This document shows positions 17,860 through 34,436 of a stretch of 64,000 nucleotides of DNA, piece by piece. Under the pieces are notes generated by a model. The model searched no databases and had not been told where the DNA came from. It saw only the letters and a list, made by a program, of their open reading frames with translations. Origin of the DNA: Actinoalloteichus fjordicus (lineage in GTDB: Bacteria > Actinomycetota > Actinomycetes > Mycobacteriales > Pseudonocardiaceae); NCBI RefSeq assembly GCF_001941625.1, contig NZ_CP016076.1, positions 6,370,001 to 6,434,000 of the forward strand, in the 5' to 3' direction. Both the position numbers and the translations under genes were made by a program. Position 1 is the stretch's first letter, and each line of letters starts with the position of its first letter.

Positions 17860-19257
17860 TCAGGACACCTGCCCGTCCAGCCCCTGCAGCCGCAGCAGCA
17901 GATCGCGGACGTCCGTCGCGGCCAGCCGCCCGTCTCGTTCCACCTGCTGCGGGACCTGCTGGTCCGAGCAGAGCAGCACCGGACCGTCCTGTGGGGAGTC
18001 CGGAAGTCGCCCATGCGATCCGCGTACCGGCGACGGGTCGAGCGGAACCACGTTCATCGCGTACCGCAGGCCGACCTTCTTGCGTACCAGGTTCGTCGCC
18101 GCCTTGGCCTTGACCATCGGGTCCGCCGGGTCGAAGAACAGCTCCGCCGGGTCGTAGCCGGGCTTGCGGTGGATCTCGACGCCCTTGGCGAAGTCGGGCG
18201 CGGAGGCATCGTCCAGCCAGTAGTAGTAGGTGAACCAGGCACGCGGCTCGGCCACCGCGACGAGTTCCCCGGCGCGCTCGTGGTCGATGCCGTAGCGGGC
18301 CTGCTGTTCCCGGTCGAGGACCTCGTCGACGCCGGGCAGTCCCGCGACGATGTCCCGCACCCTGGGCAGGTCGGCCGGGTCGGCGACGTAGACGTGGGCG
18401 ACCTGGTGGTCGGCCACGGCGAAGGCCCTGGAGGCCCAGGGGTCGAGGTACTCCATGCCCGCCTGGCGGTAGACCTCCAGCAGTCCCTCGCGACGCAGCG
18501 CGCGGTTGACGTCCACCGGCTGGTCCGCCGAGGTGATGCCGTACTCGCTCAACGCCACGACGGAGGCCTGCTGCCTGCGCGCCTCCAGCAGCAGCGGCGC
18601 CAGCTCGGCGTCCACGGCGCGGGCGGCGGCGATTGCCTGCGGCGAGTCGGGTCCGAACCGCTGAAGGTCGTAGTCGAGGTGCGGCACGTAGACCATCAAC
18701 AGCTCGGGCCGGTGTCGTTCCAGGACGCGGGTCGCCGCCTGGGCGATCCATCGACTGGAGGCGATCGACGCCGTCGGGCCCCAATACTGGAAGAGCGGGA
18801 ACTCGCCGAGCTCGGTGGTGAGCTCGTCGTGGAGCGTCACGGGGCGCGTGTAGCAGTCGGGCGACTTGCGGCCGTCGGCGTGGTAGATCGGCCGGGGCGT
18901 GACCAGCATGTCCGTGGAGGCGCCCATCGCGTACCACCAGCAGATGTTGGCGGCCCGATAGCCGGGGTGGGCCGCGCGGGCGGTCTCCCACACCTTCTCG
19001 CCCTGGACCAGCCGATTGTGCTGCCGCCACAGGTAGACCTCGCCGAGGTCCCGGAAGTACCAGCCGTTGCCGACGATGCCGTGCTGCGCGGGCATCCGGC
19101 CCGTGAGGAACGTCGACTGGACGCTGCAGGTGACTGCGGGCAGCACGGTGCCGAGTTCGGCCTGCCAGCCCGTCTTGCCGAGCGCGGCCAGGTTGGGCAT
19201 GTGCGCCAGCAGCCGGGGGGTCATCCCGACCACGTCGAGCAGCACCAGTGGCTTCAT
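17860..19257 (-). CDS. eboF: EboF-like alkaline phosphatase-fold phosphodiesterase
   Basis: A 465-residue type I phosphodiesterase/nucleotide pyrophosphatase-like protein. Metal ligand Asp8 (LLDVVGMTP), a Thr/Ser nucleophile region AVTCSVQSTFLTGR (about 41-54) and AQHGIVGNGW (about 58-66) are intact, as is a later SEYGITSADQPVDVN segment. No signal peptide, so it acts in the cytosol unless exported by other means. It is the last gene of the ebo-type cluster, overlapping eboE by ATGA, with AGGAGG upstream. In ebo clusters the EboF-type protein is thought to release or modify a phosphate- or nucleotide-linked intermediate; the actual substrate is unknown. The identification rests on motifs plus the four typical partners upstream. 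Confidence 0.85.
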   Translation of the reverse strand: MKPLVLLDVVGMTPRLLAHMPNLAALGKTGWQAELGTVLPAVTCSVQSTFLTGRMPAQHGIVGNGWYFRDLGEVYLWRQHNRLVQGEKVWETARAAHPGYRAANICWWYAMGASTDMLVTPRPIYHADGRKSPDCYTRPVTLHDELTTELGEFPLFQYWGPTASIASSRWIAQAATRVLERHRPELLMVYVPHLDYDLQRFGPDSPQAIAAARAVDAELAPLLLEARRQQASVVALSEYGITSADQPVDVNRALRREGLLEVYRQAGMEYLDPWASRAFAVADHQVAHVYVADPADLPRVRDIVAGLPGVDEVLDREQQARYGIDHERAGELVAVAEPRAWFTYYYWLDDASAPDFAKGVEIHRKPGYDPAELFFDPADPMVKAKAATNLVRKKVGLRYAMNVVPLDPSPVRGSHGRLPDSPQDGPVLLCSDQQVPQQVERDGRLAATDVRDLLLRLQGLDGQVS

Positions 19258-20423
19258 CCTCGTACCTCCTCCACGTCGCTGATCAGGTTCTCGGCCGCCC
19301 AGGTGAGCTCGGCGGCGATGCCGTCGACGAGTTCCGCGTCGGAGCGTGGCGTCGTCTCCGTCGTCTCGGCCGCCGCCTGACTGGTGCCTGCTCTGGGCAG
19401 CACGCTCCAGGTGTAGGTCTCCACCTCCACGTGCGGCCGGAACTCCTGAGCGTGTCGCAGTGCCGTCACCGCCTCCCGCAGCACCCAGGTCGTCGAGCGC
19501 AGCGGCGCGACGGGCTGGGCGTGCAGCGGGACGTGGAAGTGCACCCGCCACGGCCCGAGACCGGGCAGTTCGCTCGCCGCCTGCGGCAGGTCGTCGACGG
19601 CGCGGATCTGCTGGTCCGAACCGAGTTCTCGCACCTGATGCAGGTAACGCGGCTCGTCGAAGTGGGCCAGCGCCGCCTTGGTCGCGGGGCTCTGGGGACG
19701 GTCGACCTGGAGGGCGGCCGAGGCCTGCACCTTCACCACCTCGAGTCCGGCCGCCTTGATCGAGGCGATGGTCTCGGTCGGGTCAGCGAAGGACACCGCG
19801 AGATGACAGGTGTCCAGGCAGAGCCCGATGTAGGCCGGGTCGACGCGACCGGACAGCCAGCCCACGGCGTCGGCGACCGTGTCCAGCACGCAGCCAGGCT
19901 CCGGTTCGACGGCCAGTCGGATCGGGCGGCCGATCCGACGATGCAGCTCGCGCAGGCCCAGGGTCAGCTCGTCGATGGCGCCCAGCGCGAGCATCTCGTC
20001 GGCGATGCTCCACGGCAGGCGCCAGCCCAGCGGCAGCGTGGAGATGCTGCCGTGGTCGGCGTCGGCGGGCAGCAGATCGGCGAGGACGGTCGCACAGTCC
20101 AGCGTGTACTTGAGTCGGGAACGCTCCGTCCACCTCGGCTGATAGACCGCGTGCTTCACCACCTGCTGGTGGAAACCGCCGTAGGGGAAGGCGTTGAGGG
20201 TGTGCACCTCCAGGCCCCTGGCCCGCAGTTCCGAGGCGAGCCTGGCGCGCGCGTCGGCGTCCTCGGCCAGACCGGCGGCCACGTCGGCGGCCAGCCACAG
20301 TCCGACGCCGAGCCGATCGGCGCCCAGCCTGCGGCGCACCGGCTCGGCGTAGTCGTCGAGCTGGGCGAGGATGCCCGACAGGTCCTCCGCCGGGTGCACG
20401 TTGGTGCAGTAGGAGAGCGTCAT
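19254..20423 (-). CDS. eboE: metabolite traffic protein EboE (TIM barrel)
   Basis: A 389-residue xylose isomerase-like TIM barrel. It opens with the EboE-typical LSYCTNVHPAEDL and has AFPYGGFHQQVVK, AVEPEPG (Glu173/Glu175), LCLDTCHLAVSF (Asp204, His207), VKVQASAALQV, and late HFHVPL and VEVETYTW segments, so a divalent metal site is likely. In cyanobacterial ebo clusters EboE is needed for correct movement of a scytonemin precursor to the periplasm, and NCBI names the family metabolite traffic protein. The gene overlaps eboB upstream and eboF downstream by ATGA each. The reaction is not established in any organism that I know of. Confidence 0.92.
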   Translation of the reverse strand: MTLSYCTNVHPAEDLSGILAQLDDYAEPVRRRLGADRLGVGLWLAADVAAGLAEDADARARLASELRARGLEVHTLNAFPYGGFHQQVVKHAVYQPRWTERSRLKYTLDCATVLADLLPADADHGSISTLPLGWRLPWSIADEMLALGAIDELTLGLRELHRRIGRPIRLAVEPEPGCVLDTVADAVGWLSGRVDPAYIGLCLDTCHLAVSFADPTETIASIKAAGLEVVKVQASAALQVDRPQSPATKAALAHFDEPRYLHQVRELGSDQQIRAVDDLPQAASELPGLGPWRVHFHVPLHAQPVAPLRSTTWVLREAVTALRHAQEFRPHVEVETYTWSVLPRAGTSQAAAETTETTPRSDAELVDGIAAELTWAAENLISDVEEVRG

Positions 20424-21403
20424 CTCGCACCGCCTGAATCGGCGCCTTCCGCCGGACTCGGGCGGACAGCAGACCCTGCCGGACTCGGGCGGACAGCAGA
20501 CCCCGCCGTCCCGCCGAACGTGGCCGGGTCAGGACAGGCGCCGCGCAGCACGGAGTTGCCCTCGAAGGTCCCCGACGCCGTGTCCGCCGACGCACCGAAG
20601 CCGGGCAGTTCGGACAGCTCTAACCTGCCGCTCTGCCCGTAGAACTGCACCGGGTTGTGCCACAGGACGGTGTCCACCTGGTCTTCGGAGAAGCCTGCGG
20701 CGAGCATCGCCTGGCCGGTCTTGTACGTCTTCAGCGGATCGGATCGGCCCCAGTCGGCGGCCGAGTTCACCAGGACTCGCTCGGTGCCGTACTCCTTGAG
20801 CAGCGCGACCATCCGGTGCTCGTCCATCTTGGTGTCCGGATAGATCGAGAAGCCCATCCAGCAGCCCGCGTCGAGGACGGCTTCGATGGTGACCTCGTTG
20901 AGGTGATCGACCAGGACGTGCTCCGCGGGCAGCCCGGACTCGGCCACCACGTCCAGCGTCCGCCGGGTCCCCTTGAGCTTGTCCCGGTGCGGGGTGTGCA
21001 CCATCACGGGCAGCTCGTGTTCGCCGGCGAGTTCGAGCTGCCGGGCGAAGACCCGGTCCTCCTCGGGAGTCATCGAGTCGTAGCCGACCTCGCCGACCGC
21101 GACCACGCCGTCCTTGGCCAGATACCGAGGCAGGACGTCGAGCACGTCGACGCAGCGCGGATCGTTGGCCTCCTTCGGATTGAGCGCGATCGTGCAGTGA
21201 TGGCGGATGCCGAACTGCGCGGCGCGGAATCGCTCCCAGCCGATCAGCGCGTCGAAGTAGTCGGTGAAGGAGGCGACGCTGGTCCTGGGCTGGCCGAGCC
21301 AGAACGCCGGTTCCACCAGGGCACGGACGCCTGCGGCGTACATCGCCTCGTAGTCGTCGGTGGTGCGCGAGGTCATGTGGATGTGCGGGTCGAAGATGCG
21401 CAT
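20420..21403 (-). CDS. eboB: EboB-like TatD family hydrolase
   Basis: A 327-residue metal-dependent hydrolase of the TatD/amidohydrolase superfamily. Metal residues are in FDPHIHM (His7, His9), VAVGEVGYD, LPVMVHTPH, EHVLVDHLNE and NSAADWG. The catalytic core ends near residue 285; the rest is a Gly/Ser/Pro/Ala tail with a 9-residue duplication (GSAVRPSPA twice) encoded by a 27-base tandem repeat. GGGGAGG precedes the ATG, which shares one base with the eboA stop (TGATG). EboB-type proteins are a constant member of ebo/edb clusters. The substrate is unknown. Confidence 0.9.
   Translation of the reverse strand: MRIFDPHIHMTSRTTDDYEAMYAAGVRALVEPAFWLGQPRTSVASFTDYFDALIGWERFRAAQFGIRHHCTIALNPKEANDPRCVDVLDVLPRYLAKDGVVAVGEVGYDSMTPEEDRVFARQLELAGEHELPVMVHTPHRDKLKGTRRTLDVVAESGLPAEHVLVDHLNEVTIEAVLDAGCWMGFSIYPDTKMDEHRMVALLKEYGTERVLVNSAADWGRSDPLKTYKTGQAMLAAGFSEDQVDTVLWHNPVQFYGQSGRLELSELPGFGASADTASGTFEGNSVLRGACPDPATFGGTAGSAVRPSPAGSAVRPSPAEGADSGGAR
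20451..20502. repeat. 27-base tandem duplication in the eboB tail
   Basis: Two perfect 25-base copies (20451-20475 and 20478-20502, core GGACTCGGGCGGACAGCAG) with a period of 27 bases, so the reading frame is kept. It encodes two GSAVRPSPA units in the unstructured C-terminal tail of the EboB-like protein and looks like a recent slippage or duplication event. Confidence 0.85.
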
Positions 21404-22119
21404 CAGTGCTGCCTCCCCTGGTCCTGCGTCGGCTCGCTCGGCTGGTCGGTGTGGGGACCGCTCGGCCGGTCGGCGGGCTCGGGTCCGGGTCCGCCGATCA
21501 GGTCCAGTGCGTCGGCGGGCACCTCGCGGCCCGCCGCGCGACGCTCGGCCGCGTAGTCCTCGATCATGCGCAGCAGTTCGGCGTCGGTTCGCTCGGCCAG
21601 CGCGGCGACCGCCGCCAGAGGAACCCCGGTGAACAGGCACTTCAGCACGCCGTGCCGCCAGGTGTGCGCATCGAGATGTCGGCCTGCGAACGGGCCCATC
21701 GCGGCGGCGACCAGCCGGACGTCGTTGGCCCGGAGTGCATCGCGGACCAGGATCAGCGCAGCGTCGACGAGCCGGTCCCGCTCCTCGCCGGGCTCCTGGA
21801 CGGAGGTGAGGACGTCCAGGCCGCGCAGGACGCCTCGGCGTTCGGCGTCGTCGCCGTAGCGGTAGAGGTCCGCGATCTCGGTGGCCAGCCGCGTCGGCGA
21901 GCAGACCGAGGCGAGGACGCCGAGCAGGCCGATGCGGGTCAGATCGTCCTCGGTCCCGTGCACGAGACCCTGCGGGTCGGAGTCCGGCCGCAGCACCGCC
22001 CGGCCGACCTTGCGCCCCACCGCGGGGAACAAGGTGCGGATGGCGGCGGGATCGGTGGTGATCCGCTGGGCGGCCTCGGCCTCCCACGGTGTCAACGAGT
22101 GGGTCTGATGCTCGCTCAC
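21403..22119 (-). CDS. eboA: EboA domain protein
   Basis: A 238-residue helical protein. The EboA-type domain spans about 12-195: repeated amphipathic helices, a VLRGLDVL segment, and the motif DAHTWRHGVLKCLFTGVPLAAVAAL that marks this family. The last 45 residues are Gly/Pro/Asp-rich and disordered. It starts at GTG, overlapping the preceding TIM-barrel gene by GTGA, with GGGAGG six bases upstream. EboA has no known fold or reaction, but it is the diagnostic gene of ebo clusters. It may be a scaffold or carrier for the pathway; that is conjecture. Confidence 0.88.
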   Translation of the reverse strand: MSEHQTHSLTPWEAEAAQRITTDPAAIRTLFPAVGRKVGRAVLRPDSDPQGLVHGTEDDLTRIGLLGVLASVCSPTRLATEIADLYRYGDDAERRGVLRGLDVLTSVQEPGEERDRLVDAALILVRDALRANDVRLVAAAMGPFAGRHLDAHTWRHGVLKCLFTGVPLAAVAALAERTDAELLRMIEDYAAERRAAGREVPADALDLIGGPGPEPADRPSGPHTDQPSEPTQDQGRQH

Positions 22120-23273
22120 CTGCTGCCTCCCGAACTCCGAGGGTGCGCCGTCTGTTGGGGCGTCGAGTCCGCCGATGCGGTGATGCTCGACCGGGCCGAG
22201 GCGATGGCGCTCGGCCCGGTCGAGGACAGGGGAGCCGCCGGGGCCGTCACGACAGCGGAAGTCCGGGCCGTGGTCCCGGCAGCGCGAGCCTGTGTCATGG
22301 TCCCGGACCGCGCGGCGGGGACGTCGTGCGCGGCCGATGCGGCCTGCGCGCCCGTCTCGGCCGTCGCCTGGCCCCGCCGACCGGCGGGCAGCGCGGCCCG
22401 CAGCGCGGCCAGCGAACGCCGGGCGACGGTGGGCGCGGCATGACTGTGCCTGGGCAGCTCGACGGCGGCCAGGCCTCGATAGTCGATCTCGTGCAGGGCG
22501 GCCAGCGTCGCGGCCAGGTCGAGTTCGCCCGTGCCGAACTCCAGGTGCTCGTGGACGCCCGGCATCATGTCGTCGAGCTGAACGTTCACCAGCAGCCCGC
22601 CCGCCAGCCGGATGCACTCGGCGGCATCGACCGGTTCCACGGCGACACAGTGCCCGACGTCGAGCGTCAGCCGCAGCGAGTCCGGCTCGCCGAGGTCGGC
22701 GCGCAGCGTCAACGCCTGATCGAGGCGCTCGATGACATGACCGGGCTCCGGCTCCAGGCCCAGCGGCACTCCGACACGGTCGGCCTCCGCCAGCACCGGT
22801 TCGAGTCCCTGCCTCAGACGTCGCCAGGTCAGCTCGGCACCGCTGCCGTCCTCGTCGACGCCCGACCAGCAGGAGACGCAGTCCGCGCCGAGGTCGGCGG
22901 CCACCCGCAGTGCCCTGGTGAGGAAGTCGATCCGGGGGGCCTGGTCGTCGCAGACGAGCGTCGGATGGTGCTTGCGTGTCGGATCCAGCAGATATCGGGC
23001 GCCGGTCTCCACCACGACGCGCAGTCCGAGCTCGGCCAGCCGAGTCGCCACCCGGTCGGTCTCGTCCCGCAGATCGGCGGCGAAGGGGTCGAGATGGGCG
23101 TGGTCGAGGGTGAGGGCGACTCCGGTGTAACCGAGGTCGGCGATCACGGCCAGTGCGTCGAGCAGCCGATGGTTGGCGAAGCCGTTGGTGCCGTAGCCGA
23201 GGTCGAAGCCCGGCCCGGTCGGTCCCGAGTCGGGCCGGGACGTCGCGGCGGCGTGGGTCGTCACATCGGTCAT
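22116..23273 (-). CDS. TIM-barrel sugar isomerase/epimerase, extra member of the ebo-type cluster
   Basis: A 385-residue protein whose first 295 residues form a xylose isomerase-like TIM barrel: YGTNGFANHRLLDAL, LGLEPEPGHV (Glu174/Glu176), LTLDVGHCVAVEP (Asp205, His208), VNVQLDDMMPG and LAAVELPRHSH supply the metal ligands. It is related in layout to EboE but lacks the YCTNVHP start. The remaining 90 residues are an Ala/Ser/Thr-rich disordered tail. The ATG at 23273 has GGAGGG eight bases upstream. I do not recall this gene from the six-gene cyanobacterial and Pseudomonas clusters. It lies between the EboC and EboA genes, so it probably works on the same sugar or cyclitol intermediate. Confidence 0.85.
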   Translation of the reverse strand: MTDVTTHAAATSRPDSGPTGPGFDLGYGTNGFANHRLLDALAVIADLGYTGVALTLDHAHLDPFAADLRDETDRVATRLAELGLRVVVETGARYLLDPTRKHHPTLVCDDQAPRIDFLTRALRVAADLGADCVSCWSGVDEDGSGAELTWRRLRQGLEPVLAEADRVGVPLGLEPEPGHVIERLDQALTLRADLGEPDSLRLTLDVGHCVAVEPVDAAECIRLAGGLLVNVQLDDMMPGVHEHLEFGTGELDLAATLAALHEIDYRGLAAVELPRHSHAAPTVARRSLAALRAALPAGRRGQATAETGAQAASAAHDVPAARSGTMTQARAAGTTARTSAVVTAPAAPLSSTGPSAIASARSSITASADSTPQQTAHPRSSGGSR

Positions 23274-23361
23274 CCCCGCGTCCCTCCCCGAATTCCGTGC
23301 CAACCGGTCGGTACGGCGGCGACGGTCCCCGTCCGCCGTCGCCCGTTCCGCACGGCCGCCG

Positions 23362-24234
23362 TCACGTGGGGCTCACCTTGCGGGCCAGCGCCCGCGCGGC
23401 GGGGAGCACGCCGACGATCAACGCGGCGGCCTTCGCCGCACCGCGCCGCGCCGCGATGCCCGCCTGCAACGGCACCATCCCGTGGATGCCCGCGACGGTG
23501 GCGGCCCGGACCCGTTCGGCGGAGGGAGTCCGCGCGGCGGCGAGCTGTGCCCGGCCGACGAGGCGTCCATAGCCGACGCCTGCGGCAGCGCCGAGCACTC
23601 GATGCAGCGGAGACTTCGCCGGGCCCAGCACCGTGGCCGAGGCGGCGACGCCGGTCGCGGCCAGTGCGGCCCTGGCGGTGCTTGTCGAACCGCCGTGCAC
23701 CTCACCCGCCGACAACGCGGTGATCCCCGCAGCGTGACAGGCCATCGCCCCCGCCGCCGGGAGCGCGCCTCGCAGGTTGCCGGGGGCCGCGCCCAACAGG
23801 ACGTCGAGTCCTCGACACAACGCCATGCCCAGCGGCGCCGCCGAGGTCGGCTTCAGCACGGTGTCGTACGCCCAGATCGCCGAGGAGAGCGCGACCGCCA
23901 CCCGCGCGCTGTCCCGCCCGCCCGCCAGTGCCGACAGACCGATTCCGGTACCGGCCAGGCCCGCGGCGACGGCCAGGGCGCCCGACGGGGAGATCCGTCC
24001 GGAGGGGATGGGCCGCTCCGGTCGCTCCACGGCGTCCAGTTCGCGATCCGCCCAGTCGTTGAGGGCCATCCCCGACCAGTACAGGGCGACCGACGCCAGC
24101 GGCAGCAGCAGCCGACGACCGCGCAGCGGCGTCCCGGAGGCCGCCGCGCCCGCGATGGTGTCGCCGAGCACGGACAGCCCGGCGGGCGCCCGCACCAGTT
24201 CGACGAGCGTCTTGGTCCGGTCGGCGACGCTCAT
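23362..24234 (-). CDS. eboC: EboC-like UbiA-family prenyltransferase
   Basis: A 290-residue polytopic membrane protein of the UbiA superfamily, with about eight predicted helices. The first Asp-rich motif is NDWADRELDAVERPERPIP (Asn59, Asp60, Asp63, Asp67), which binds the prenyl diphosphate through magnesium. The second motif is reduced to YDTVLKPT, as in other EboC proteins where the second Asp cluster is degenerate. It should transfer a prenyl group to, or act on, a polar acceptor at the membrane. It overlaps the inositol-phosphate-synthase-like gene by ATGA and is followed after 88 bases by the extra TIM-barrel gene. Confidence 0.88.
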   Translation of the reverse strand: MSVADRTKTLVELVRAPAGLSVLGDTIAGAAASGTPLRGRRLLLPLASVALYWSGMALNDWADRELDAVERPERPIPSGRISPSGALAVAAGLAGTGIGLSALAGGRDSARVAVALSSAIWAYDTVLKPTSAAPLGMALCRGLDVLLGAAPGNLRGALPAAGAMACHAAGITALSAGEVHGGSTSTARAALAATGVAASATVLGPAKSPLHRVLGAAAGVGYGRLVGRAQLAAARTPSAERVRAATVAGIHGMVPLQAGIAARRGAAKAAALIVGVLPAARALARKVSPT

Positions 24235-25478
24235 GCCTGCGCCCCGGCCTCGGGATTCGCTGAGCCTGTCGCGGAACCGGGCAGGCCGTCGGCGTCGCCT
24301 GTCAGGCTCACCCGCAGCTCGTCGACCCAGTGCGCCAGTTCCCTGGTCTGCTCGGCGAACCGGTGCTCGTCGCTACCCAGCGGGTCCTTGAAGAAGAAGG
24401 CCAGCGCGCCCAGCGGCCCCGACCGGCCCGCCGCATGGGCGGCCGAGGTCAGGCGGGCCAGGTCGAGGACCAGCGGTGCGGCCAGGGAGGAGTCGTAGCC
24501 GGTCCAGGTGAACTGCAAGGTCATCCTGGCGCCGAGGAAGCCCTCGAAGGAGACGTGATCCCAGGCCGTCTTGACGTCGCCCATGTCGGGGACGTTGTCG
24601 ATGTGCAGCGGCGCCGTGACGTCGGAGCCCAGGAGTGCGGCGAGCCCGCGTGCCTTGGACTCGAGCTTGCTGGCGGCGAACTCTGGATCGCCGAGGGTCG
24701 CGCCGTCGCCGCCGCCCAGCAGATTGGTGCCCGCCCAGGAGCGGACCTTCAGCGCCCTGGCGGTGAACATCGGGGCGAGGACGGTGCGCAGCAGCGTCTC
24801 GCCGGTCTTGCCGTCGCGTCCCGCGTAGGGCAGGCCCTTGAGGTCGGCCAGCTCACGCAGCGCGGGCAGGGTGATCCCCGTGGAGGGGGTGAAGTCGACA
24901 TAGGGGCAGCCCGCGCGCAGTGCCGCGTACGCGGCCAGCGAACTGGGCGGCAGCACCGTCCGCGTCGGGTCGGCCAGTGCCTGTTCGAGCGCGGCGAGGT
25001 CCTGGTGTTCCGCGACCAGCGGAACCGGCGGCTCGGTGGAGGCGAGGTTGACGACGACCACCCGGCGTAGACCGTGCCGTTCCCGGAAGGAGACGAGGTC
25101 GCCGATGAGCGTCTCGGCCGCCTCGGCCTGCGAGCCCGTGTGCAGGGTGGGGTGATAGCCGCAGCGGATGTCGGAGTCGACGACCCGCAGTCCCTCGGCG
25201 ATGCCGCGCAGCACCGAGGCAGGCACGAGACCTGCCGCGCTGAGCTGCTCGGCGCGCTTGTCCAGGGCGGTGTCGACGATGTCGTGGCCGCCGATCACCA
25301 GTTCATCCCAGGCAGGCAGCGGAGCGACGTCGAAGGGAGCGCGCTCGGTGACGCACCCGATCGGCTCGACCAGGCCTGCGCGTAGGGCCAGCAGACCGCT
25401 GATCACGGTGGTGGCCACCGACCCTCGGGCTCCGATCAGCCAGAGACCGGTCGGCCCCACACCATGGGGACTGTTCAT
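24231..25478 (-). CDS. inositol-3-phosphate synthase-like protein, first gene of the ebo-type operon
   Basis: A 415-residue NAD-dependent protein of the myo-inositol-1-phosphate synthase family. NAD motif LWLIGARGSVATT (about 12-24), YVDFTPSTGITLPAL, AGRDGKTGETLLRTVLAPM, and the catalytic-domain stretch SWAGTNLLGGGDG followed by SKLESKARGL with the paired lysines. It would cyclise glucose 6-phosphate or a related sugar phosphate. It occupies the cyclase slot that in other ebo clusters is filled by the dehydroquinate-synthase-like EboD. I prefer the ATG at 25478 with AGGTGG eight bases upstream; a GTG at 25490 is also possible. It leads seven coupled genes. It is probably not the housekeeping Ino1, judged by context only. 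Confidence 0.85.
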   Translation of the reverse strand: MNSPHGVGPTGLWLIGARGSVATTVISGLLALRAGLVEPIGCVTERAPFDVAPLPAWDELVIGGHDIVDTALDKRAEQLSAAGLVPASVLRGIAEGLRVVDSDIRCGYHPTLHTGSQAEAAETLIGDLVSFRERHGLRRVVVVNLASTEPPVPLVAEHQDLAALEQALADPTRTVLPPSSLAAYAALRAGCPYVDFTPSTGITLPALRELADLKGLPYAGRDGKTGETLLRTVLAPMFTARALKVRSWAGTNLLGGGDGATLGDPEFAASKLESKARGLAALLGSDVTAPLHIDNVPDMGDVKTAWDHVSFEGFLGARMTLQFTWTGYDSSLAAPLVLDLARLTSAAHAAGRSGPLGALAFFFKDPLGSDEHRFAEQTRELAHWVDELRVSLTGDADGLPGSATGSANPEAGAQA

Positions 25479-25642: not shown

Positions 25643-28600
25643 TCACTCGGCGTTGACCGACTTCGTCAGCACCGCGACGCCCTCGATCGAGGCGATCACG
25701 GCCTCGGCGTCGCGGACCAGCACCGTGCGGACGTCGGCGTCGGTGACCAGCGTGGTGTCCCCGGCCAGTGCGGCGAAGGACGCCAGGCCCTCGATCGCCC
25801 CCAGGTCGTCCCCGGTCGCCTCGGCCAACCGGGCAGCGGCGAGCTGCTCGGTCAGATCCCGATGCGCGTACAGGGACAGCCTGTTGGTGGCGCGGAACCG
25901 GTCGACGAGCTGACCGATGTCGCGCAGCGAGGTGGTGGTGGCGAAGGTGACCGACTGCTCGGCCGTGTTGCCCGCCCGGTCGACGGCGCTCACCGAGATG
26001 TCGTGAGTGCCGAAGGGAAGCTGGTAGAGCGGGACGAGCCTGCCGGAGCGGATCTCCTCACCGTTGAGGGTGCCGATGACCGAGTCCACTCCGGAGGTCG
26101 AGTCGTCGACCTCCCAGGACACGAACAGGTCCGTGGCATCGCCGTAGACCCTGCCCTCGGCGACCCCGGCCAGCAGCAGCGTCGGAGCGGTCGCGTCCAG
26201 CAGCACGGTGGCCGCCTTCTCCGCCTCGACGTTGCCCGCCGTGTCGACGGCGCGGTAGAGCAGCGTGTGCTCACCATCGCCGCTGATCTGCACGGCGGAC
26301 TCGTACTCGGTCCACTCCCCGTCGTTCAGGCTCCATTCGAGCCGGGCGACGCCGGAGGCCTCGTCGGACGCGGACAGCTCGACGGCGACGTCACCGTCGT
26401 GCCAGCCGTTCTCGTTCGGCGCATCGGCCAGGACCGCTTCGGTCAGCGGCTCGGTCGCGTCGATCCGCAGCTCCGTGGACTGCGTCTCCTCCACGTTGCC
26501 CGCGACGTCGGTGGAGCGGTACTCCACCGTGTGGATGCCGTCCCCGGCAACCGCGAACGGCTCCGAGTACTCGGTCCACTCGCCCTCGTCGATCCGGTAT
26601 TCGGTGCTCGCCACTCCGCTGCCCTCGTCGGCGGCCGACAGGCTCACCGACAGGGGCGTGGAGGTGAACCAGCCCTCGGCACCGTCGGCCTCGGCCGGGT
26701 CGGTGCTCAGGGTGGTGACGGGGGCGGCCTCGTCCGCGATGTCGGCGACCTGGATGTCGCGGAAGTAGACGTCGTCGCCGTCGCCGTGGTTCTGGATGCC
26801 GACGTATCCGTTGGTGAGGTCGCGGTTCTCGTCGGTGCTGACGAAGTCGTTGATCAGCACGTCGTTGAGGTAGACCTTGATGGTCTGGCCCTCGACCACG
26901 ATCTCGTAGGAGTTCCACTCGCCGGGCGGGTTGAGCGCGGCGTCGCGGGCCTCGAGGTCGGCGCCCTGGAACGTGTAGATCGCACCGGTCGTGCGGTCGT
27001 CGGCGTCCGTCGCGTCGATCTGAATCTCGTAGCCCTCGTCGACGGCCACCCACGGGTCGTCACCGGGGTCCGGGAATCCGACGAAGACGCCCGAGTTGTC
27101 GTCGCCCGTCATCATCCAGTCGGCCTTGAAACTGTAGGAGCCCAGCTCCTCGCCGTGCCAGAGCAGGCCCATGCCGCCGGTCGAGAGGATGGTGCAGTCG
27201 TCCTGCAGGACGAACTCACCCGGTCCGGCCTGGTTCCAGCCGTCCAGCGACGCCTGCGTGCCGTCGAAGAGACTGCGGTAGCCCTCCTCAGGGGTGCCCG
27301 GCTCACAGCCCGGCTCGCCGGGATCGTTGCCGCCCGGCTCGGTCACACCCGGACCGTCGAAGCGGATGACGTCCAGGTCGAACAGGGCGCCTTCGCCCCC
27401 GACGAACACGAAGAACAGCTCGTGCGAGCCGCCAGGGTCGGTGACCGGCGTCGGGTCGATGTCGACGTGGGTGTTCCAGTCGCCGGTGTTGGCGACCTCG
27501 ACCGTCTGGAGCAGCTCGCCGTCCGGTGCGCCGGAGCGGACCTCGATGGACCCGCCCGAACCGCCGGAGGCGACGCGGTAACCGATGCCGTCGACACCGT
27601 GCAGGTTCACCGGGTCGAAGGAGATCCAGTCACCGTTCTCGATGTTGCCGACCTGGCCGCCGCCCGAGGCGCCCGCGTGGGAGTCGATGACGTCGACGCC
27701 CTCGCTGTTGTGGAAGAACTCCGCCTCCTTCGACTTCGTGTGCAGGATGTTCTGGTCGGAGCCCTCCAGGGCGGGCACGCCCTCGGCGCCGTCATCGGTG
27801 TAACTGGCGTCGATGACGCCGAAGATGTTGGCGTCCGCACCGTGTCCGTCGTCGGCGACGGTGGTGATGGTGCCCTCACAACCGGTCTCCCGGCTGAGCG
27901 GGTGGCCGTGGTTGTCATGGCCGAGGATGTACTCGACGACGACGCGTGAGCAGTCGATCTCGCCGTCCTCGGGGTCGGTCACCGTCACCTGGAAGGGAAC
28001 CTGGTCGCCGAAGGCGAAGACGCCGCCGTCGACGGGGAACTCCAGCTCCACGGTCGGTGCCGTGTTGCCTGCCGTGATGGTCACCGTCGCCGCGCCGGTC
28101 AGGCCGTCGGTGTCGGTCACCGCCAGTCGAGCCTGGAACTGGCCTGCCTCGGTGTAGGTGTGGCTGACCGGGCCGGCCTCGGTGGAGTCAGTCGTTCCGT
28201 CGCCGTCGAAGTCCCACTCGTAGGTGAGCTCCTGGTCGTCCGGGTCGACGGTGCCGGTCGGGTCGAACTCCACGGTGAGCGGAGCCGGACCGTTGGTGAC
28301 GTCGGCCGACAGCGCGACGCTCGGCGTCCGGCCGCCCTGGGTGTAGTCGATCCGGTAGACCGCCGAGTCCGGGGCCCCGCCGAAGTAGCCGCTGCCGTAG
28401 TCCAGCACGTACAGCGATCCGTCCGGGCCGAACTCGATGTTCATCGGCCTGGTCAGTTCCATCGAGTCGAAGAACGGGGCGATCGTGCCCGGTTCGCCGT
28501 TCTCGCCGACGTCGATGGTCTTGATCCAGCCCCGGTCCCACTCGTAGGCGAAGTTCTTGCCGTCGTAGTACTCCGGGAACTTCGTGTCGACGGCCAGCTC

Positions 28601-30706
28601 AGGGTCGAACCGGTAGACCGGGCCGCCCATCGGGGACTCGCCGCCGTTGCCGAACTCCGGAACCGAGTTGCCGTCGTAGGGAATCCACGCGGGGTCGGCG
28701 GGCGGCAGCTCGGTCAGCCCGGTGTTGTTCGGGCTGGTGTTCTGCGGTGCCGCGCAGTCGAAGGCCTCGCCGGAGGTGCTGGTGGCGAAGTCGTAGTCGA
28801 TGAACGGCTCGTTGTCGCCGACACAGTAAGGCCAGCCGAGGTTGCTCGGCTCGGTGATCAGGTTGAACTCGACCAAGCCGCCCGGGCCTCGGTCCGGGTT
28901 GGCAGAACCGGCATCCGGGCCGTACTCGCCGAGGTAGATCCAGTCGGTGACCGGGTCGACCGCGAATCGGAACGGGTTGCGCAGGCCCATCGCATAGACC
29001 TCGGGCCGGGTCAGCTCGGTGCCTTCCGGGAAGAGGTTGCCCTCCGGGATGGTGTAAGAGCCGTCCTCCTCCACCGTGATCCGCAGGACCTTGCCCCGCA
29101 GGTCGTTGGTGTTGGCGGAGCTGCGCTGCGCGTCGAAGGCCGGGTTGCGGTCGGCCCGCTCGTCGATGGGCGTGTAGCCGGAGGACTCGAACGGGTTGGT
29201 GTCGTCGCCGGTGGACAGCAGCAGGTTGCCCTGGCTGTCAAAGTCGATCTCACCGCCCGCGTGGCAGCAGATGCCCCGGTCCGCGGGGACCTGGAGGATC
29301 TCCTGCTCACTGTCGATGTCCAGCGTGCCGTCGTCGAGGAGCTTGAACCGGGAGAGTTGGTTGTGACCCTCGAACGGTACGAAGTCCTCGGCCGTGCCCG
29401 TCAGAGGCGCATCGCCGGTCGGGGTGTCCAGAACCGGTGCGTAGTACAGGTACACCCACTGGTTCTCTTCGAAGTTCGGGTCGATCGCGACGCCTTGGAG
29501 GCCGTCCTCGTCGTTGTTGTAGACGGGGATCTGGCCTGCCAGCGTGGTGGTGGCCTCCGGCGTCGTCAGGAAGATCTCGCCGTACCGCGAGGTGTGCAGC
29601 ACGCGCCGGTCGGGGAGCACCGCGAGTCCGATGGGCTCACCGGTGACGCCGTCGCCCTGGGCCAGGGTGATCTGGTCGAAGTCCTCGTCGGCCGGGGCCT
29701 CGGGGTCGGGGTCGTGGCCGCCGTGGTCACCGCCGCAGTTCGCGTCCACCGCGCCTGCCGCGCTCTGGATGCCGCCCGCGAGGTGCTGGCGGAACTCCGG
29801 CTCCGAGAAGGACTCGATGGTGTGGCCGCCGCCGGTGTACCAGGACCGGCCGCCGTCGATCTCGTGGCACCAGGCGATCGGGTGATCGCCCATCGCGCCC
29901 GAGCCTGCGTCGTACGAGGACTCGTCCAGCGCGGCGAGGACGTGGACGTCCTCCCGAGGATTCTCCTGGTAGTTGTACCACTCGTCGGTGCGCACCCACT
30001 CCTCCGGCAGATGTGCGCTGGACGGGTGGTCGTGGTCCTCGACGTGAACCGTGGCCTCTTGGATGTGCGGGTGAGAGTCGAAGTAGGCACCCACCAGGTC
30101 GCCGTACCAGGGCCAGTCGTACTCGGTGTCCGAGGCCGCGTGGACGCCCGCGTAACCGCCGCCGCCCTGGATGTAGCGCTCGAAGGCGCCCTGCTGCTCG
30201 TCGTTAAGCACGTCCCCGGTGGTCGACAGCCAGACGACGACCTCGTACTGGGCGAGGTTGTCGTCGGTGAAGTCCTCGGCGTCCTCCGTCGCGGTGACGG
30301 TGAAGCCGTGCTCCTCGCCGAGCTCCTCGATCGCCGCGATGCCCGCCGGGATCGAGTCGTGCCGGAACCCGGCGGTCTTGGAGAAGACGAGCGCGTCGAA
30401 CTCCTGGTCACCGCCGTGGTCCGGCGGGTGATCGTGATCGTCGCCTGGATCGTGTCCCTCGTGGGCGGCCTCCGGTGCCTGCGAGATCGGGTCGAGCCGG
30501 TTCTGTCGGTCGGAGACGTCCGGCCGTGCGCCCAGTCCTGCGGTCGGGAGGGCGGACGCCGTGCCGCTCACTCCCAGTGCGGTCAGCAGGGAGAGCGTCA
30601 CGATTCCTGCCCGCCGCGCCAGCCTGCCGCGTCGCCCGGTGTGCGCGCGCGGTCTCTGGCTTAACACATACTTATCGGAGTTGCTTTCCAGTCTGCTCCG
30701 TTGCAC
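25643..30706 (-). CDS. secreted ThuA / sugar dehydrogenase / PKD / CBM6 / DUF1080 multidomain protein
   Basis: A 1,687-residue secreted protein. Signal region to about 55 (basic run, then GIVTLSLLTALGVSGTASA). ThuA-like trehalose-utilisation domain about 103-320 (FDALVFSKTAGFRHDS, GGGGYAGVHAASDTEYDW). Sorbosone/glucose dehydrogenase beta-propeller about 345-800 (DGLQGVAIDPNF, CCHAGGEIDFDSQG, GLRNPFRFAVD). PKD domain about 805-890 (LTYEWDFDGDG). A CBM6-like lectin domain about 1000-1120. DUF1080 (3-keto-disaccharide hydrolase fold) about 1145-1335. Two repeats ending SVDxAGN-type, as in OmpL47 beta domains, then a helical C-terminus. The second GTG is taken as start because AAGGAG lies ten bases upstream. 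It probably degrades oxidised oligosaccharides outside the cell. Confidence 0.85.
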   Translation of the reverse strand: MQRSRLESNSDKYVLSQRPRAHTGRRGRLARRAGIVTLSLLTALGVSGTASALPTAGLGARPDVSDRQNRLDPISQAPEAAHEGHDPGDDHDHPPDHGGDQEFDALVFSKTAGFRHDSIPAGIAAIEELGEEHGFTVTATEDAEDFTDDNLAQYEVVVWLSTTGDVLNDEQQGAFERYIQGGGGYAGVHAASDTEYDWPWYGDLVGAYFDSHPHIQEATVHVEDHDHPSSAHLPEEWVRTDEWYNYQENPREDVHVLAALDESSYDAGSGAMGDHPIAWCHEIDGGRSWYTGGGHTIESFSEPEFRQHLAGGIQSAAGAVDANCGGDHGGHDPDPEAPADEDFDQITLAQGDGVTGEPIGLAVLPDRRVLHTSRYGEIFLTTPEATTTLAGQIPVYNNDEDGLQGVAIDPNFEENQWVYLYYAPVLDTPTGDAPLTGTAEDFVPFEGHNQLSRFKLLDDGTLDIDSEQEILQVPADRGICCHAGGEIDFDSQGNLLLSTGDDTNPFESSGYTPIDERADRNPAFDAQRSSANTNDLRGKVLRITVEEDGSYTIPEGNLFPEGTELTRPEVYAMGLRNPFRFAVDPVTDWIYLGEYGPDAGSANPDRGPGGLVEFNLITEPSNLGWPYCVGDNEPFIDYDFATSTSGEAFDCAAPQNTSPNNTGLTELPPADPAWIPYDGNSVPEFGNGGESPMGGPVYRFDPELAVDTKFPEYYDGKNFAYEWDRGWIKTIDVGENGEPGTIAPFFDSMELTRPMNIEFGPDGSLYVLDYGSGYFGGAPDSAVYRIDYTQGGRTPSVALSADVTNGPAPLTVEFDPTGTVDPDDQELTYEWDFDGDGTTDSTEAGPVSHTYTEAGQFQARLAVTDTDGLTGAATVTITAGNTAPTVELEFPVDGGVFAFGDQVPFQVTVTDPEDGEIDCSRVVVEYILGHDNHGHPLSRETGCEGTITTVADDGHGADANIFGVIDASYTDDGAEGVPALEGSDQNILHTKSKEAEFFHNSEGVDVIDSHAGASGGGQVGNIENGDWISFDPVNLHGVDGIGYRVASGGSGGSIEVRSGAPDGELLQTVEVANTGDWNTHVDIDPTPVTDPGGSHELFFVFVGGEGALFDLDVIRFDGPGVTEPGGNDPGEPGCEPGTPEEGYRSLFDGTQASLDGWNQAGPGEFVLQDDCTILSTGGMGLLWHGEELGSYSFKADWMMTGDDNSGVFVGFPDPGDDPWVAVDEGYEIQIDATDADDRTTGAIYTFQGADLEARDAALNPPGEWNSYEIVVEGQTIKVYLNDVLINDFVSTDENRDLTNGYVGIQNHGDGDDVYFRDIQVADIADEAAPVTTLSTDPAEADGAEGWFTSTPLSVSLSAADEGSGVASTEYRIDEGEWTEYSEPFAVAGDGIHTVEYRSTDVAGNVEETQSTELRIDATEPLTEAVLADAPNENGWHDGDVAVELSASDEASGVARLEWSLNDGEWTEYESAVQISGDGEHTLLYRAVDTAGNVEAEKAATVLLDATAPTLLLAGVAEGRVYGDATDLFVSWEVDDSTSGVDSVIGTLNGEEIRSGRLVPLYQLPFGTHDISVSAVDRAGNTAEQSVTFATTTSLRDIGQLVDRFRATNRLSLYAHRDLTEQLAAARLAEATGDDLGAIEGLASFAALAGDTTLVTDADVRTVLVRDAEAVIASIEGVAVLTKSVNAE

Positions 30707-30822
30707 TGGTATTTTTCTCCTTGTTGTCACCGGATCTCGCCGATCTGCGACCGAGGTCGTGGTCGGCGAGTTGGGGCTGTCGCTAGCGGCTGGTGCCTCC
30801 TTCGAATCAGACCGGTGAAACA

Positions 30823-30883: not shown

Positions 30884-32074
30884 TTATCCTCGGGCGCCGA
30901 ACAGGTGTTCCAAGGCCAATTGGTCGAGTCGCTCGTAATGGAGTCCGCGCTGACCGGCCTCGACCGGGTCGAACTCCTCATCACGAAGGTCGGACAGGGT
31001 CTCACCAGGAGCGAGAGTCGGGACGGCGAGCGAACCGAGTCGCGAGGCGCTCATCGCCTCGGCCACCTCGGGGTCCGCGCGAAACGCCCTGGCCCGCTCG
31101 GCGAGGATCAGGTAATTGCGCATACAACCCGCCGCCGAGACCCAGACGCCCTCGTCGTCCTCGGTGCGCGGCGGCTTGAAGTCGAAATGCCTCGGGCCCT
31201 CGTAACCGCCGTGTTCCAGCAGGTCCACCAGGAAGAACGCGCTTTTCACGTCGCCGTTGCCGAAGCGCAGGTCCTGGTCGTACCTCGGCCCGTTCTGTCC
31301 ATTGAGGTCGATGTGGAACAGCTTGTCCTGCCACAGCGCCTGGGCGACGCCGTGCACCATCGACATTCCCGCCATCTGCTCGTGGCCGACCTCGGGATTC
31401 ACCCCCACCATCTCGGGGTGTTCGAGAGTGCTGATGAACGCGATGGCGTGGCCGATGGTGGGCAGCAGCAGGTCGCCGCGCGGCTCGTTCGGCTTGGGCT
31501 CCAGCGCCAGCCGCATCGAGTAGCCGCGCTCCCTGATGTAGGCACACACCAGGTCGAGGGACTCCTTGTAGCGGTCGAGCGCCACCCGGATGTCCTTGGC
31601 GGCAGCCGACTCGGCGCCCTCGCGGCCACCCCAGACGACATAGGTGCTCGCACCCAGTTCGGCGGCGAGGTCGATGTTGCGCAGCATCTTGCGCAGTGCG
31701 TACCGACGGATGTCCCGGTCGTTGGCGGTGAGCGCACCGTCCTTGAACACCGGCTGGCCGAACAGGTTCGTCGTCGCCATCGGGACGACCAGCCCCGTCG
31801 AGGCCAGCGCGCCCTTGAACGCGGCGATGATCTTCTCGCGTTCGCTCTCGCTGGACCCGAAGGGAATCAGGTCGTCGTCGTGGAAGGTGATGCCCCATGC
31901 GCCCAGCTCGGCCAGCTTCTCGACGGCGCGCACCGGGTCCAGCGGCGGACGGACTGCCACGCCGAACGGGTCGACGCCCTGCCAGCCGATGGTCCACAGT
32001 CCGAAGCTGAACTTGTGCTCCGGACGCGGCTGGTACGGATCGATCCCGTCGGTCACTGCTGCTGACGTCGTCAT
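30884..32074 (-). CDS. xylA: xylose isomerase
   Basis: Converts D-xylose to D-xylulose (and glucose to fructose) with two divalent metals. The 396-residue protein is a class I actinomycete-type enzyme: [13 protein letters not shown] contains the catalytic His65 and Asp68, YVVWGGREG is next, and [13 protein letters not shown] holds Glu192, Lys194 and Glu197. [35 protein letters not shown] completes the metal site in outline. GAAGGG lies six bases before the ATG, which overlaps the oxidoreductase gene by ATGA. It ends a unit that begins with a Gfo/Idh/MocA gene and follows a full sugar importer, so pentose uptake and entry to the pentose phosphate route are linked. Confidence 0.96.
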
Positions 32075-33279
32075 ACGTCACCCTTCGAGTCGGCGATCGT
32101 GGTCCAGGAGGAGGACTCGGCGGCACTGCGCTCGACAGCGTGCAGGACACGCTGTACCTGAGCACCGTCGGCGAAACTCGGCGTCGGGTCCACCCCGTTG
32201 CCGATGTCGGTCAGGAAGTCGGCCACCTCGTGAGTGAAGGTGTGCTCGTAGCCGAGCCCGTGACCGGGCGGCCACCACGCCGCGAGGTAGGGATGGGTCG
32301 GCTCGGTGACCACGATGCGTCGGAAGCCGCCCTCGGCGGCGTCCACCGTCTCGTCGTGGAACCACAACTCGTTCATCGACTCGAAGTCGAAGGACAGGCT
32401 GCCCGCCGAGCCGTTGATCTCCACCCGCATCGCGTTCTTGCGACCGGTGGCGAAGCGGGTCGCCTCGAAGGTGGCGATCGCCCCGCCGGAGAACCGCGCG
32501 AGGAACAGCGCGGCGTCGTCGACGGTGACCTCGCCGTACTCCACCGGCTTGGACGAGTCCACGGCGCCCGCGGTGAGGCCGCCCGCCGCCTCGACGGGCA
32601 GCGGCCGCTGCTTCACGAAGGTCTCGGTCAGCGCCGAGACCCCGGTGATCGTCTGTCCGGTGATGAACTGAGTTGCGTCGATGATGTGGGCGCCGATGTC
32701 GCCGAGCGCCCCGGAGCCCGCCTTCTCCTTGCGCAGTCGCCAGGCCAGCGGGGCGTTCTCGTCCGACAGCCAGTCCTGGAGGTATACGGCGCGGACGTGC
32801 CGGATCGTGCCCAGCCGCCCGTCGGCGATCATCTTCCTGGCCAGCGCCAGCGCGGGCACCCGGCGGTAGTTGAACGCCACCATGGAGCGCACGCCCCTGG
32901 TGGCGGCCTCGGCTGCCGCACGCACCATCTCGTCGGCCTCGGCGACCGTGTTGGCCAGCGGCTTCTCGCAGATGACGTGTTTGCCCGCGGCGAGCGCCGC
33001 GATGGCGATCTCGGCGTGGGTGTCACCCGGAGTGCAGATGTCGACGATCCCGACGTCGTCGCGGGCGATCAGCGCCCGCCAGTCGGTCTCGACGGACTCC
33101 CAGCCCATCCGGGTGGCCGCCGCCTGCGTCTTGGTCACGTCCCTGCCGCCGAGCACCGCAAGTCTCGGGGCGAGCGGGACGTCGAAGAAACGGTGCACGC
33201 TCCGCCAGGCCTGGGAGTGGACCGCCCCCATGAAGGAGTAGCCCACCATTCCCACGCCGATGCCGTCGCTGCCTGCCAT
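32071..33279 (-). CDS. Gfo/Idh/MocA family oxidoreductase
   Basis: A 402-residue NAD(P)-dependent sugar dehydrogenase-type protein. It has an N-terminal Rossmann fold ([18 protein letters not shown]), [17 protein letters not shown], the family motif CEKPLANT with the catalytic Lys, and the C-terminal barrel with [21 protein letters not shown], where a His/Asp pair normally sits near the substrate. GAGGAACGCGC precedes the ATG. It is coupled to xylA by ATGA and follows the importer genes. Such enzymes oxidise or epimerise sugars through keto intermediates, which fits the nearby DUF1080 domain and TIM-barrel isomerases. The precise sugar is unknown. Confidence 0.9.
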
Positions 33280-33368: not shown

Positions 33369-34436
33369 TCAGGACTCGAAGCCCACGTCGCGGTAGTCGG
33401 CCACATTGTCCGCTGTGACCACGGCGGAGTAGGTGGTCAGCGAGGCGGGAATCTCGTGCTCCGCGAGATCGCCCATGCCCTTGCTCTGGCCGAGCAGCCG
33501 GGCCATCGACACCGCCGAGGAGCACATCGAGGGGCTGTAGAGGACGGTCGCGGCGACCACGCTCTCCGGGTCCTCGATGTAGTTCATCATGTTGATCGAG
33601 CCTGCACCGCCGACCACGAACAGCTCGTCTGGGTTGTTGCGGCCCGCGCTGTCGATCGCGGCGAGCACGCCGATGCCCTGGTCGTCGTCGTGGTTCCACA
33701 GCGCGTCGATCCGGGGCGCCGCCTGGAGCAGGTTGGCCGTCTCCGACTCGCCGGTCTCGACGGTGAACTCGGCCGCGACCCGGTTGGTGACGCTGAAGCC
33801 GTGCCGCTCCAACGCGTCGGCGAAGCCCTGGCTGCGCTCCTGGGTCAGCGGCAGCGAGTCGATGCCCGCGACCTCGGCGATCACCGGGTCGTCGACACCG
33901 TCGGCGATCAGCCGCTCGCCGATGTAGTTGCCCGCGTTGACGCCCATCCGGTAGTTGTCGCCGCCGATCCACATCCGGTAGGCCAGCGGGCTGTCGAAGA
34001 TCCGGTCGACGTTGATGACCGGGATGCCTGCGTCCATCGCCTGCTGGCCCGCCGAGGTCAGCGCGGCGCCGTCGTGCGGGAGGATGATCAGCACGCCGAC
34101 ACCGGAGTTGATCAGCGTCTCGACCTGGGCGATCTGCTGGTTGACGTCGTTGGTGCCCTCGGTGGCGTTAAACACGACGTCGGAGTAGATCTCGGCCTGG
34201 GCCTGGGCGTTCCGCGTCATCGCGGCCATCCAGCCGTGGTCGGCGGCCGGTGCGGAGAAGCCGATCGTGACCTCCTCGCCCGGCTCGGCGTTGTCACCGC
34301 CGCCCTGCGCGACGGGCTGCGATCTGTCGCTCGCCGGCGCGGCGTTCGACGTACAGGCGCTCAGCAGGACTCCTGCGCCGATGGCAGTGCCACCCAACAG
34401 GAACCGACGGCGAGCGAACAGCGGGTTCTCGGACAT
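33369..34436 (-). CDS. xylF: sugar ABC transporter substrate-binding lipoprotein
   Basis: A 355-residue periplasmic-binding-protein type 1 lipoprotein. It has a twin-arginine motif (RRRFLLGG, about 9-16) and a lipobox LLSAC with Cys28 as the lipid anchor, then a spacer and two Rossmann-like lobes: GFSAPAADHGWMAAM, INSGVGVLIILPHDGAAL, INVDRIFDSPLAYRMWIGGDN and ALWNHDDDQGIGVLAAI. These are typical of ribose/xylose/galactose-type binding proteins. It lies 125 bases after the permease gene in the same direction, so one importer is encoded. Xylose is the probable ligand by context with xylA, but other aldoses cannot be excluded, hence the symbol is tentative. Confidence 0.85.
   Translation of the reverse strand: MSENPLFARRRFLLGGTAIGAGVLLSACTSNAAPASDRSQPVAQGGGDNAEPGEEVTIGFSAPAADHGWMAAMTRNAQAQAEIYSDVVFNATEGTNDVNQQIAQVETLINSGVGVLIILPHDGAALTSAGQQAMDAGIPVINVDRIFDSPLAYRMWIGGDNYRMGVNAGNYIGERLIADGVDDPVIAEVAGIDSLPLTQERSQGFADALERHGFSVTNRVAAEFTVETGESETANLLQAAPRIDALWNHDDDQGIGVLAAIDSAGRNNPDELFVVGGAGSINMMNYIEDPESVVAATVLYSPSMCSSAVSMARLLGQSKGMGDLAEHEIPASLTTYSAVVTADNVADYRDVGFES

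Follow-up and report, generated by a model that had tools for sequence, protein, structure and literature searches.

The window, i.e., the whole 64,000-nucleotide stretch of Actinoalloteichus fjordicus DNA that was analysed, carries on its minus strand, from 25478 to 17860, an operon of seven genes in which a cyclase of the inositol-phosphate-synthase (MIPS) family accompanies the ebo genes and EboD is missing. The gene content, the conserved order, the absence of EboD, the ancestry of the cyclase apart from Ino1, its intact catalytic residues and the neighbourhood were established computationally, and this MIPS-for-EboD swap is the form present at nearly all the actinobacterial loci sampled, not one peculiar to A. 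fjordicus. Probably, albeit by no means surely, EboD has given way to a non-orthologous cyclase in a pathway leading to a prenylated cyclitol that acts at or beyond the membrane. The seven genes are:

24231..25478, minus strand: MIPS-family cyclase, 415 aa (PF07994, 172 bits; PF01658, 103.8 bits)
23362..24234, minus strand: SCO3242-family UbiA prenyltransferase, EboC counterpart (SCO3242_trans, 347 bits)
22116..23273, minus strand: xylose-isomerase-like TIM barrel, extra beyond EboA-F (AP_endonuc_2, 126 bits)
21403..22119, minus strand: EboA (NF035938 EboA_domain, 150.8 bits, cut-off 50)
20420..21403, minus strand: EboB, TatD-like metal-dependent hydrolase (PF01026, 55.7 bits; 62% identity with Azospirillum EboB)
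19254..20423, minus strand: EboE TIM barrel (NF035939, 433 bits, cut-off 250)
17860..19257, minus strand: EboF, type I phosphodiesterase/nucleotide pyrophosphatase family (PF01663, 224 bits; 55% identity with Azospirillum EboF)

The order is thus MIPS-UbiA-TIM-A-B-E-F and, as the first-pass annotation had claimed for the ebo counterparts, a single strand holds them all. The coupling it proposed for six of the seven genes was borne out at five of the six junctions, overlapping by 4, 4, 1, 4 and 4 nt, and not between UbiA and the TIM barrel, where the only gap (88 nt) divides the operon into blocks of two and five genes. The ebo assignment itself was confirmed, EboA and EboE scoring above their curated cut-offs and EboB and EboF being recognised by their identity with three (53-62%) and two (51-55%) proteobacterial homologues, respectively, with no dedicated model matched by either. 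In the narrower EboA_family model (cut-off 320) both the window EboA (52.7 bits) and the Azospirillum EboA (107.6 bits) remain below threshold, and no match to EboE was retrieved among solved structures up to E = 1. For the extra TIM barrel the top NCBIfam scores belong to isomerases and epimerases, all below cut-off, the best being hydroxypyruvate isomerase (48.5 bits vs 353). Overall, six of the seven proteins match enzyme families in Pfam and EboA matches none; neither a transporter family nor an oxidase or aromatase family was found among the seven by this search.

The UbiA protein scores above the SCO3242_trans cut-off of NCBIfam (347 bits vs 260), EboC being the second-best family, at 147 bits against a cut-off of 250, and archaeal geranylgeranylglycerol-phosphate prenyltransferase the third, at 53 bits. 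The EboC cut-off is a strict one, given that an Azospirillum EboC from an EboD-bearing cluster reaches only 89 bits; that no protein of the 246 class genomes exceeds it is weak evidence, as the proteobacterial EboC fails it too. The motifs NDxxDxxxD (residues 59-67) and RGLD (141-144) are present, and the three matches among solved structures are digeranylgeranylglyceryl phosphate synthase and two chlorophyll synthases.

In agreement with the reported lack of EboD, Pfam detected no dehydroquinate-synthase (DHQS) family among the seven operon proteins. Two DHQS-family genes occur elsewhere in the A. fjordicus genome, at 2.73 and 4.99 Mb, and both (180 and 202 bits) fall below the cut-off (333) of the model matched by one proteobacterial EboD; a profile search of 19.5 kb around the 4.99-Mb gene revealed no other ebo gene. 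An EboD linked to ebo genes in another part of the genome, which would have spoken against the first-pass annotation, was accordingly discarded. The same model found no protein above cut-off in 296 phylum genomes, whereas three proteobacterial plasmid ebo clusters possess a DHQS-family EboD and no MIPS.

The distribution of the cluster was evaluated in Actinomycetota genomes and plasmid records. Because a set of the best 80 of 142 relatives had been picked by similarity of the MIPS, the main count was made on 62 other loci retrieved through the SCO3242-type prenyltransferase among the 246 class genomes, window excluded, in fetched stretches of 9.8 to 19.5 kb; one of them (G217) is interrupted by a contig end, and the first cluster of G087 has a true end after EboB inside a 9.8-kb contig. 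The co-occurrence that the first-pass annotation proposed to count was found to be nearly constant: MIPS is present at 60 of the 62 loci (in one case no more than an 88-bit piece) and missing at two, the EboD profile matches at none (0/62), and all seven genes recur in identical order, on one strand, at 55, which argues that the cluster is not due to chance. A MIPS occupies the EboD position also in some haloarchaeal clusters and in one of Gemmatimonadota.

As to the cyclase, its first-pass placement in the MIPS family was upheld by NAD_binding_5 and Inos-1-P_synth domains, both above the Pfam cut-off, and by the alignment of its catalytic residues. Translation could start at ATG 25478 (415 aa) or, alternatively, at GTG 25490. 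The closest solved structure is A. fulgidus Ino1 (1u1i, E 1.9e-61, nearly full length), to which N252, K271, K275, K303, K364 and D329 of the cyclase correspond as N255, K274, K278, K306, K367 and D332. The aligned Asn and Lys positions, which we take to be the catalytic ones, are thus common to both proteins, and three of these five are those altered in PDB 3qvw, 3qvx and 3qw2. What sets the cluster enzymes apart from A. fulgidus Ino1 is a glycine at positions 259-260 of the latter, found in all 41 rows of the ebo clade: at G256 of the window cyclase the other aligned rows have N or D, and the equivalent residue is Gly in 41/41 ebo-clade members. Position 259 (yeast Asn354) is presumably one that touches the substrate, an assumption to which our literature search gave no support. 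The same catalytic residues occur in Ari2 (PDB 6k96), a MIPS relative with a different product by name (five-membered-cyclitol-phosphate synthase), and therefore do not settle the substrate of the cyclase.

In the tree proposed as a check by the first-pass annotation, in which long branches were flagged by the program, the actinobacterial cluster MIPS form one clade (41 rows, support 100/99) far from housekeeping Ino1, whereas Ari2 sits, on a long branch, with housekeeping-type Ino1. The MIPS from the clusters of haloarchaea and Gemmatirosa are placed outside this clade, so that the tree does not establish one origin of the exchange. With the TIGR03450 model of actinobacterial housekeeping Ino1 the window cyclase scores 20.8 bits (cut-off 638), and a typical Ino1, branching apart from it, is encoded at 7.04 Mb of the A. 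fjordicus genome; the cluster gene is hence not the sole housekeeping Ino1; had it been so, the earlier interpretation would have been undermined.

Directly upstream of the operon, and on the same strand, genes for sugar oxidation and uptake were identified:

25643..30730, minus strand: 1695-aa open frame with ThuA, GSDH, CBM6, PKD and 3-keto-disaccharide-hydrolase domains (Pfam)
30884..32074, minus strand: xylose isomerase (TIGR02631, 638 bits, cut-off 447)
32071..33279, minus strand: Gfo/Idh/MocA oxidoreductase, levoglucosan-dehydrogenase-like (Pfam; NF052479, 375 bits, below the cut-off of 650)
33369..37452, minus strand: sugar ABC transporter, with binding-protein frame 33369-35450, permease 34562-35641 and ATPase 35638-37452 (open-frame bounds; Pfam, NCBIfam)

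The first of these, the immediate neighbour of the operon, is often common to its relatives. Using the window's own proteins as queries and 22 regions from ebo-bearing genomes as controls, homologues of GSDH (sorbosone-dehydrogenase-type), ThuA and Gfo/Idh were detected at 39, 29 and 34 of the 62 loci, respectively, and at none of the controls; at least one of them lies in the fetched stretch at 46/62 loci vs 0/22 controls, a comparison for which Fisher p values overstate certainty since related genomes are not independent, and all three are missing at 16. This recurrent sugar-oxidation neighbourhood is a new observation of the present analysis. Xylose isomerase was rejected as a part of the module, its homologue being near none of the 62 loci (6/141 in the larger MIPS-chosen set), and so was ScyD/ScyE as a general neighbour (1/62 loci vs 2/22 controls); the latter adjoin MIPS in two Streptomyces plasmids.

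With the EboA-EboF cluster of eustigmatophyte plastids, Bacteroidetes and cyanobacteria, as far as described in the portions of PMC5133447 and PMC6282210 available to us, the window shares EboA, EboB, EboE, EboF and an EboC-like UbiA; it differs in having no EboD, a MIPS cyclase, an extra TIM barrel and a UbiA below the EboC cut-off. The word inositol is absent from the main text of both papers, and in the literature accessible to our search we found no description of a MIPS within an ebo cluster, nor any product, activity or phenotype for the MIPS-type cluster. The closest annotations are those of Streptomyces coelicolor SCO3242, namesake of the family of the window UbiA, and SCO3243, genes of the CDA cluster with adjacent locus numbers listed as putative transferase and myo-inositol phosphate synthase in the part of PMC3610822 at hand. 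The Ubi-297 operon likewise has an EboC-type prenyltransferase within an ebo operon, and the available text of PMC9235831 compares Saccharomonospora loci; unlike in the window, EboD is counted there as a cluster member, and its main text is without the word inositol.

A prenylated or lipid-linked cyclitol was proposed in 2016 for the EboD-type ebo (PMC5133447, available portion), and an unrelated cyclitol-forming family at the EboD position lends independent support to a cyclitol step in ebo. Judging from the enzyme families, the MIPS-family cyclase would cyclise a sugar phosphate to give a cyclitol phosphate, and the SCO3242/EboC-type membrane prenyltransferase would add an isoprenoid to the cyclitol or to a compound derived from it, giving such a product here too; the TIM barrels, EboB and EboF could provide isomerisation, hydrolysis and phosphate removal, and EboA perhaps a scaffold. 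The product may be active within the membrane or outside the cytoplasm, given how often sugar oxidation and uptake genes adjoin the cluster.

A less likely explanation, yet one to be taken seriously, is that the operon serves to transport other molecules across the membrane or to anchor them, as proposed for scytonemin precursors in Nostoc, the cyclitol part merely supplying a carrier. Ebo genes are reported to help export scytonemin intermediates into the periplasm (PMC6282210, portion available), and the cluster lies beside unrelated pathways, such as type II polyketide genes at L223, an NRPS-type gene with a condensation domain at L311 and the sugar genes. On the other hand, neighbours so varied would require one carrier to be very general, and the seven proteins comprise enzyme families and no Pfam transporter.

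It is also conceivable, but unlikely, that the cyclitol is dehydrated with the TIM barrels to a polyhydroxybenzene, which UbiA then prenylates to a hydroquinone or similar compound. UbiA enzymes commonly prenylate aromatics. Ubi-297, of the EboC type, farnesylates quinoline acids in vitro, not a cyclitol (PMC9235831, available text), which also speaks against the main reading. In the ebo region of Ketogulonicigenium, a TIM protein shows a resemblance to myo-inosose-2 dehydratase, at 29 bits vs a cut-off of 290. Against this are the lack of an oxidase or aromatase family among the seven proteins and the window TIM barrel itself, nearest, below cut-off, to isomerases and epimerases.

A second housekeeping supply of inositol for mycothiol or phosphatidylinositol, located in the ebo operon by accident, is very improbable: the catalytic residues do match those of inositol-phosphate synthases, and in two of 20 ebo genomes (G117 and G239) the cluster MIPS is the sole PF01658 match, making a housekeeping role possible there, but the other 18 have at least one additional PF01658 gene, and the TIGR03450 score, the separate clade and the near-constant linkage to ebo all oppose it. 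Equally hard to credit is a sugar or cyclitol catabolic operon that continues the ABC transporter, xylose isomerase and Gfo/Idh genes lying upstream, despite their common strand and the markers at 46 loci, as MIPS is a biosynthetic step, a UbiA prenyltransferase has to our knowledge no usual role in sugar catabolism, 16 loci lack every marker and some clusters adjoin polyketide or NRPS-type genes.

Returning to the displacement of EboD by MIPS, EboD-type enzymes release phosphate on cyclising and MIPS retains it, so the two cyclases may not yield the same compound. As a rather speculative alternative, the ebo-clade MIPS might have changed substrate via its Gly-Gly, e.g., to the seven-carbon sugar phosphate proposed for EboD, unrelated cyclases thereby converging on one cyclitol, whose prenylated product might be a membrane-bound helper or cofactor for extracytoplasmic oxidative enzymes, such as those of the sorbosone-dehydrogenase type or of scytonemin. 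The well-understood chemistry of the MIPS family offers a handle for testing what ebo clusters make, and the sugar-oxidation link, not found in the available portions of the cited cyanobacterial and flavobacterial ebo papers, a physiological lead. Finally, three Streptomyces records contain EboE alone or only EboB-E-F, suggesting that ebo proteins may act without a cyclase.

The seven genes of the operon, and the giant open frame next to it, lie on the same strand of the window:

Window 25478 to 17860, - strand: seven-gene operon coding for an inositol-phosphate-synthase-family (MIPS) cyclase, a UbiA prenyltransferase, a TIM barrel protein, EboA, EboB, EboE and EboF
Window 25643-30730, - strand: 1695-aa open frame with ThuA, GSDH, CBM6, PKD and 3-keto-disaccharide-hydrolase domains

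The coupling by overlapping stops and starts described in the first-pass annotation holds at five junctions (overlaps of 4, 4, 1, 4 and 4 nt), but its wording was corrected at the UbiA gene, which is followed on its 3' side by the single gap, of 88 nt. EboA and EboE matched curated models; no dedicated model was matched by EboB or EboF, which share 53-62% and 51-55% identity, respectively, with proteobacterial ebo-cluster proteins. UbiA exceeded the cut-off of the SCO3242-family model and missed that of EboC, its next best family and far above the remaining ones; the EboC of an EboD-bearing Azospirillum cluster missed the EboC cut-off too.

No DHQS-family gene, the family of the usual EboD, was found among the seven genes. 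Two are present in the A. fjordicus genome, both distant from the operon and both below the cut-off of the model fitting the Azospirillum EboD, which was exceeded in none of the 296 sampled phylum genomes. The second of them (G000:C1:4988963-4990048) fell below the cut-off of every NCBIfam model matched and may be a secondary-metabolite sugar-phosphate cyclase; in the 19.5 kb around it, ebo profiles recognised no other ebo genes.

The same arrangement recurs widely. Matches above the SCO3242 cut-off came from 60 of the 246 class genomes and mark 63 loci including the window. Within stretches of 9.8 to 19.5 kb, the 62 non-window loci contained MIPS in 60 cases (one as an 88-bit piece only), EboA in 61, EboB in 61, EboE in 60, EboF in 60, the extra TIM barrel in 57 and EboD in none. 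MIPS was missing from genome G028 and from one of the two clusters of G057. The complete set was found at 55/62 loci, always on one strand and in identical order (55/55). In a second set, taken from the best 80 of 142 cyclase relatives, 69 loci had at least 6.5 kb downstream, and 63 of them had all seven genes and none EboD. The other loci had the cyclase without the other six genes (L083, L134), with TIM barrel and EboA only (L097) or with UbiA and EboB only (L109), or missed EboB (L071) or the TIM barrel (L125).

Of the 296 phylum genomes, 13 had an EboE match above the cut-off, and the full MIPS-type cluster was present in four of these 13, all outside the class; a fourteenth (G500), with EboE matches below cut-off, had ebo genes without an adjoining MIPS. 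Among the matches listed (40 of 48), 31 actinobacterial plasmid records carried EboE, 28 of them also recovered in the MIPS search; in the remaining three, profiles found EboE alone or EboB-E-F. Two Streptomyces loci (L309, L310) had EboB, EboE and EboF close together, and within the 19 kb covered the profiles detected no MIPS, UbiA or EboA.

Outside Actinomycetota, MIPS occurred with UbiA, TatD, TIM and EboF genes on three haloarchaeal plasmids (L214, L216, L222) and in Gemmatirosa (L215). Profiles found neither EboA nor EboD in these four, and EboE in Gemmatirosa but not on the plasmids. A fourth haloarchaeal plasmid (L221) had MIPS without ebo genes.

The 41 actinobacterial MIPS of the cluster type grouped as a single clade (100/99) in a tree of 67 rows selected by us; 38 of them come from ebo clusters, and at the other three loci the cyclase stands alone or almost alone. 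Nine housekeeping Ino1, including that of A. fjordicus, lay across a long branch together with the five-membered-cyclitol-phosphate synthase Ari2, and the haloarchaeal and Gemmatirosa cluster proteins fell outside the clade. An additional PF01658 gene was present in 18 of 20 ebo genomes and absent in two. The five catalytic Asn/Lys positions of the archaeal enzyme were conserved in all rows compared. Two adjacent positions were Gly-Gly in 41/41 clade members and in 0/25 other rows; the first, presumably a substrate contact, is Asn or Asp in those 25. A separate clade of five rows (98/93; L218, L205/L271, L206/L269, L210/L270, L217) had a TIM1-like gene and no ebo genes found nearby, and its loci possibly direct an inositol-derived modified product; that of Roseomonas (L218, 6971-15167) also contains methyltransferase, Gfo/Idh, MBL-fold, YcaO and glycosyltransferase genes.

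A cyclitol-making step was proposed for EboD by Yurchenko and colleagues (PMC5133447), who also describe a fusion between EboA and a xylose-isomerase-like protein in actinobacteria. The regular replacement of EboD by MIPS within a conserved operon is as expected of a step that makes a cyclitol; the remaining steps are suggested by family chemistry. The operon parts are already named in public annotation, but no description of the exchange itself was found in the literature searched.

Upstream of the operon, on the same strand, lie genes for a ROK regulator, a sugar ABC transporter, a Gfo/Idh oxidoreductase and a xylose isomerase, besides the 1695-aa frame; a 2551-aa frame resembling the latter occurs at L304. 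GSDH, Gfo/Idh and ThuA homologues were near 39, 34 and 29 of the 62 loci; at least one of the three was near 46 loci and none near the other 16. The 22 controls, regions surrounding Ino1 or DHQS genes in ebo-bearing genomes, had none of the three. Two of the three haloarchaeal clusters were likewise confirmed to have a GSDH or ThuA domain in their vicinity. At L216, a protein with GSDH and plastocyanin-type copper domains (11568-14231) adjoins the cluster. This association with sugar-oxidation genes, whose enzymes are putatively secreted, would suit a product acting in or outside the membrane, in agreement with the scytonemin work (PMC6282210). Some other Streptomyces clusters adjoin polyketide or NRPS-type genes. 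Two type II polyketide loci of Streptomyces that resemble each other (L223, 8968-16152; L308, 8965-10143) differ in that the former carries a whole MIPS-type ebo cluster and the latter, in the same place, EboE only.
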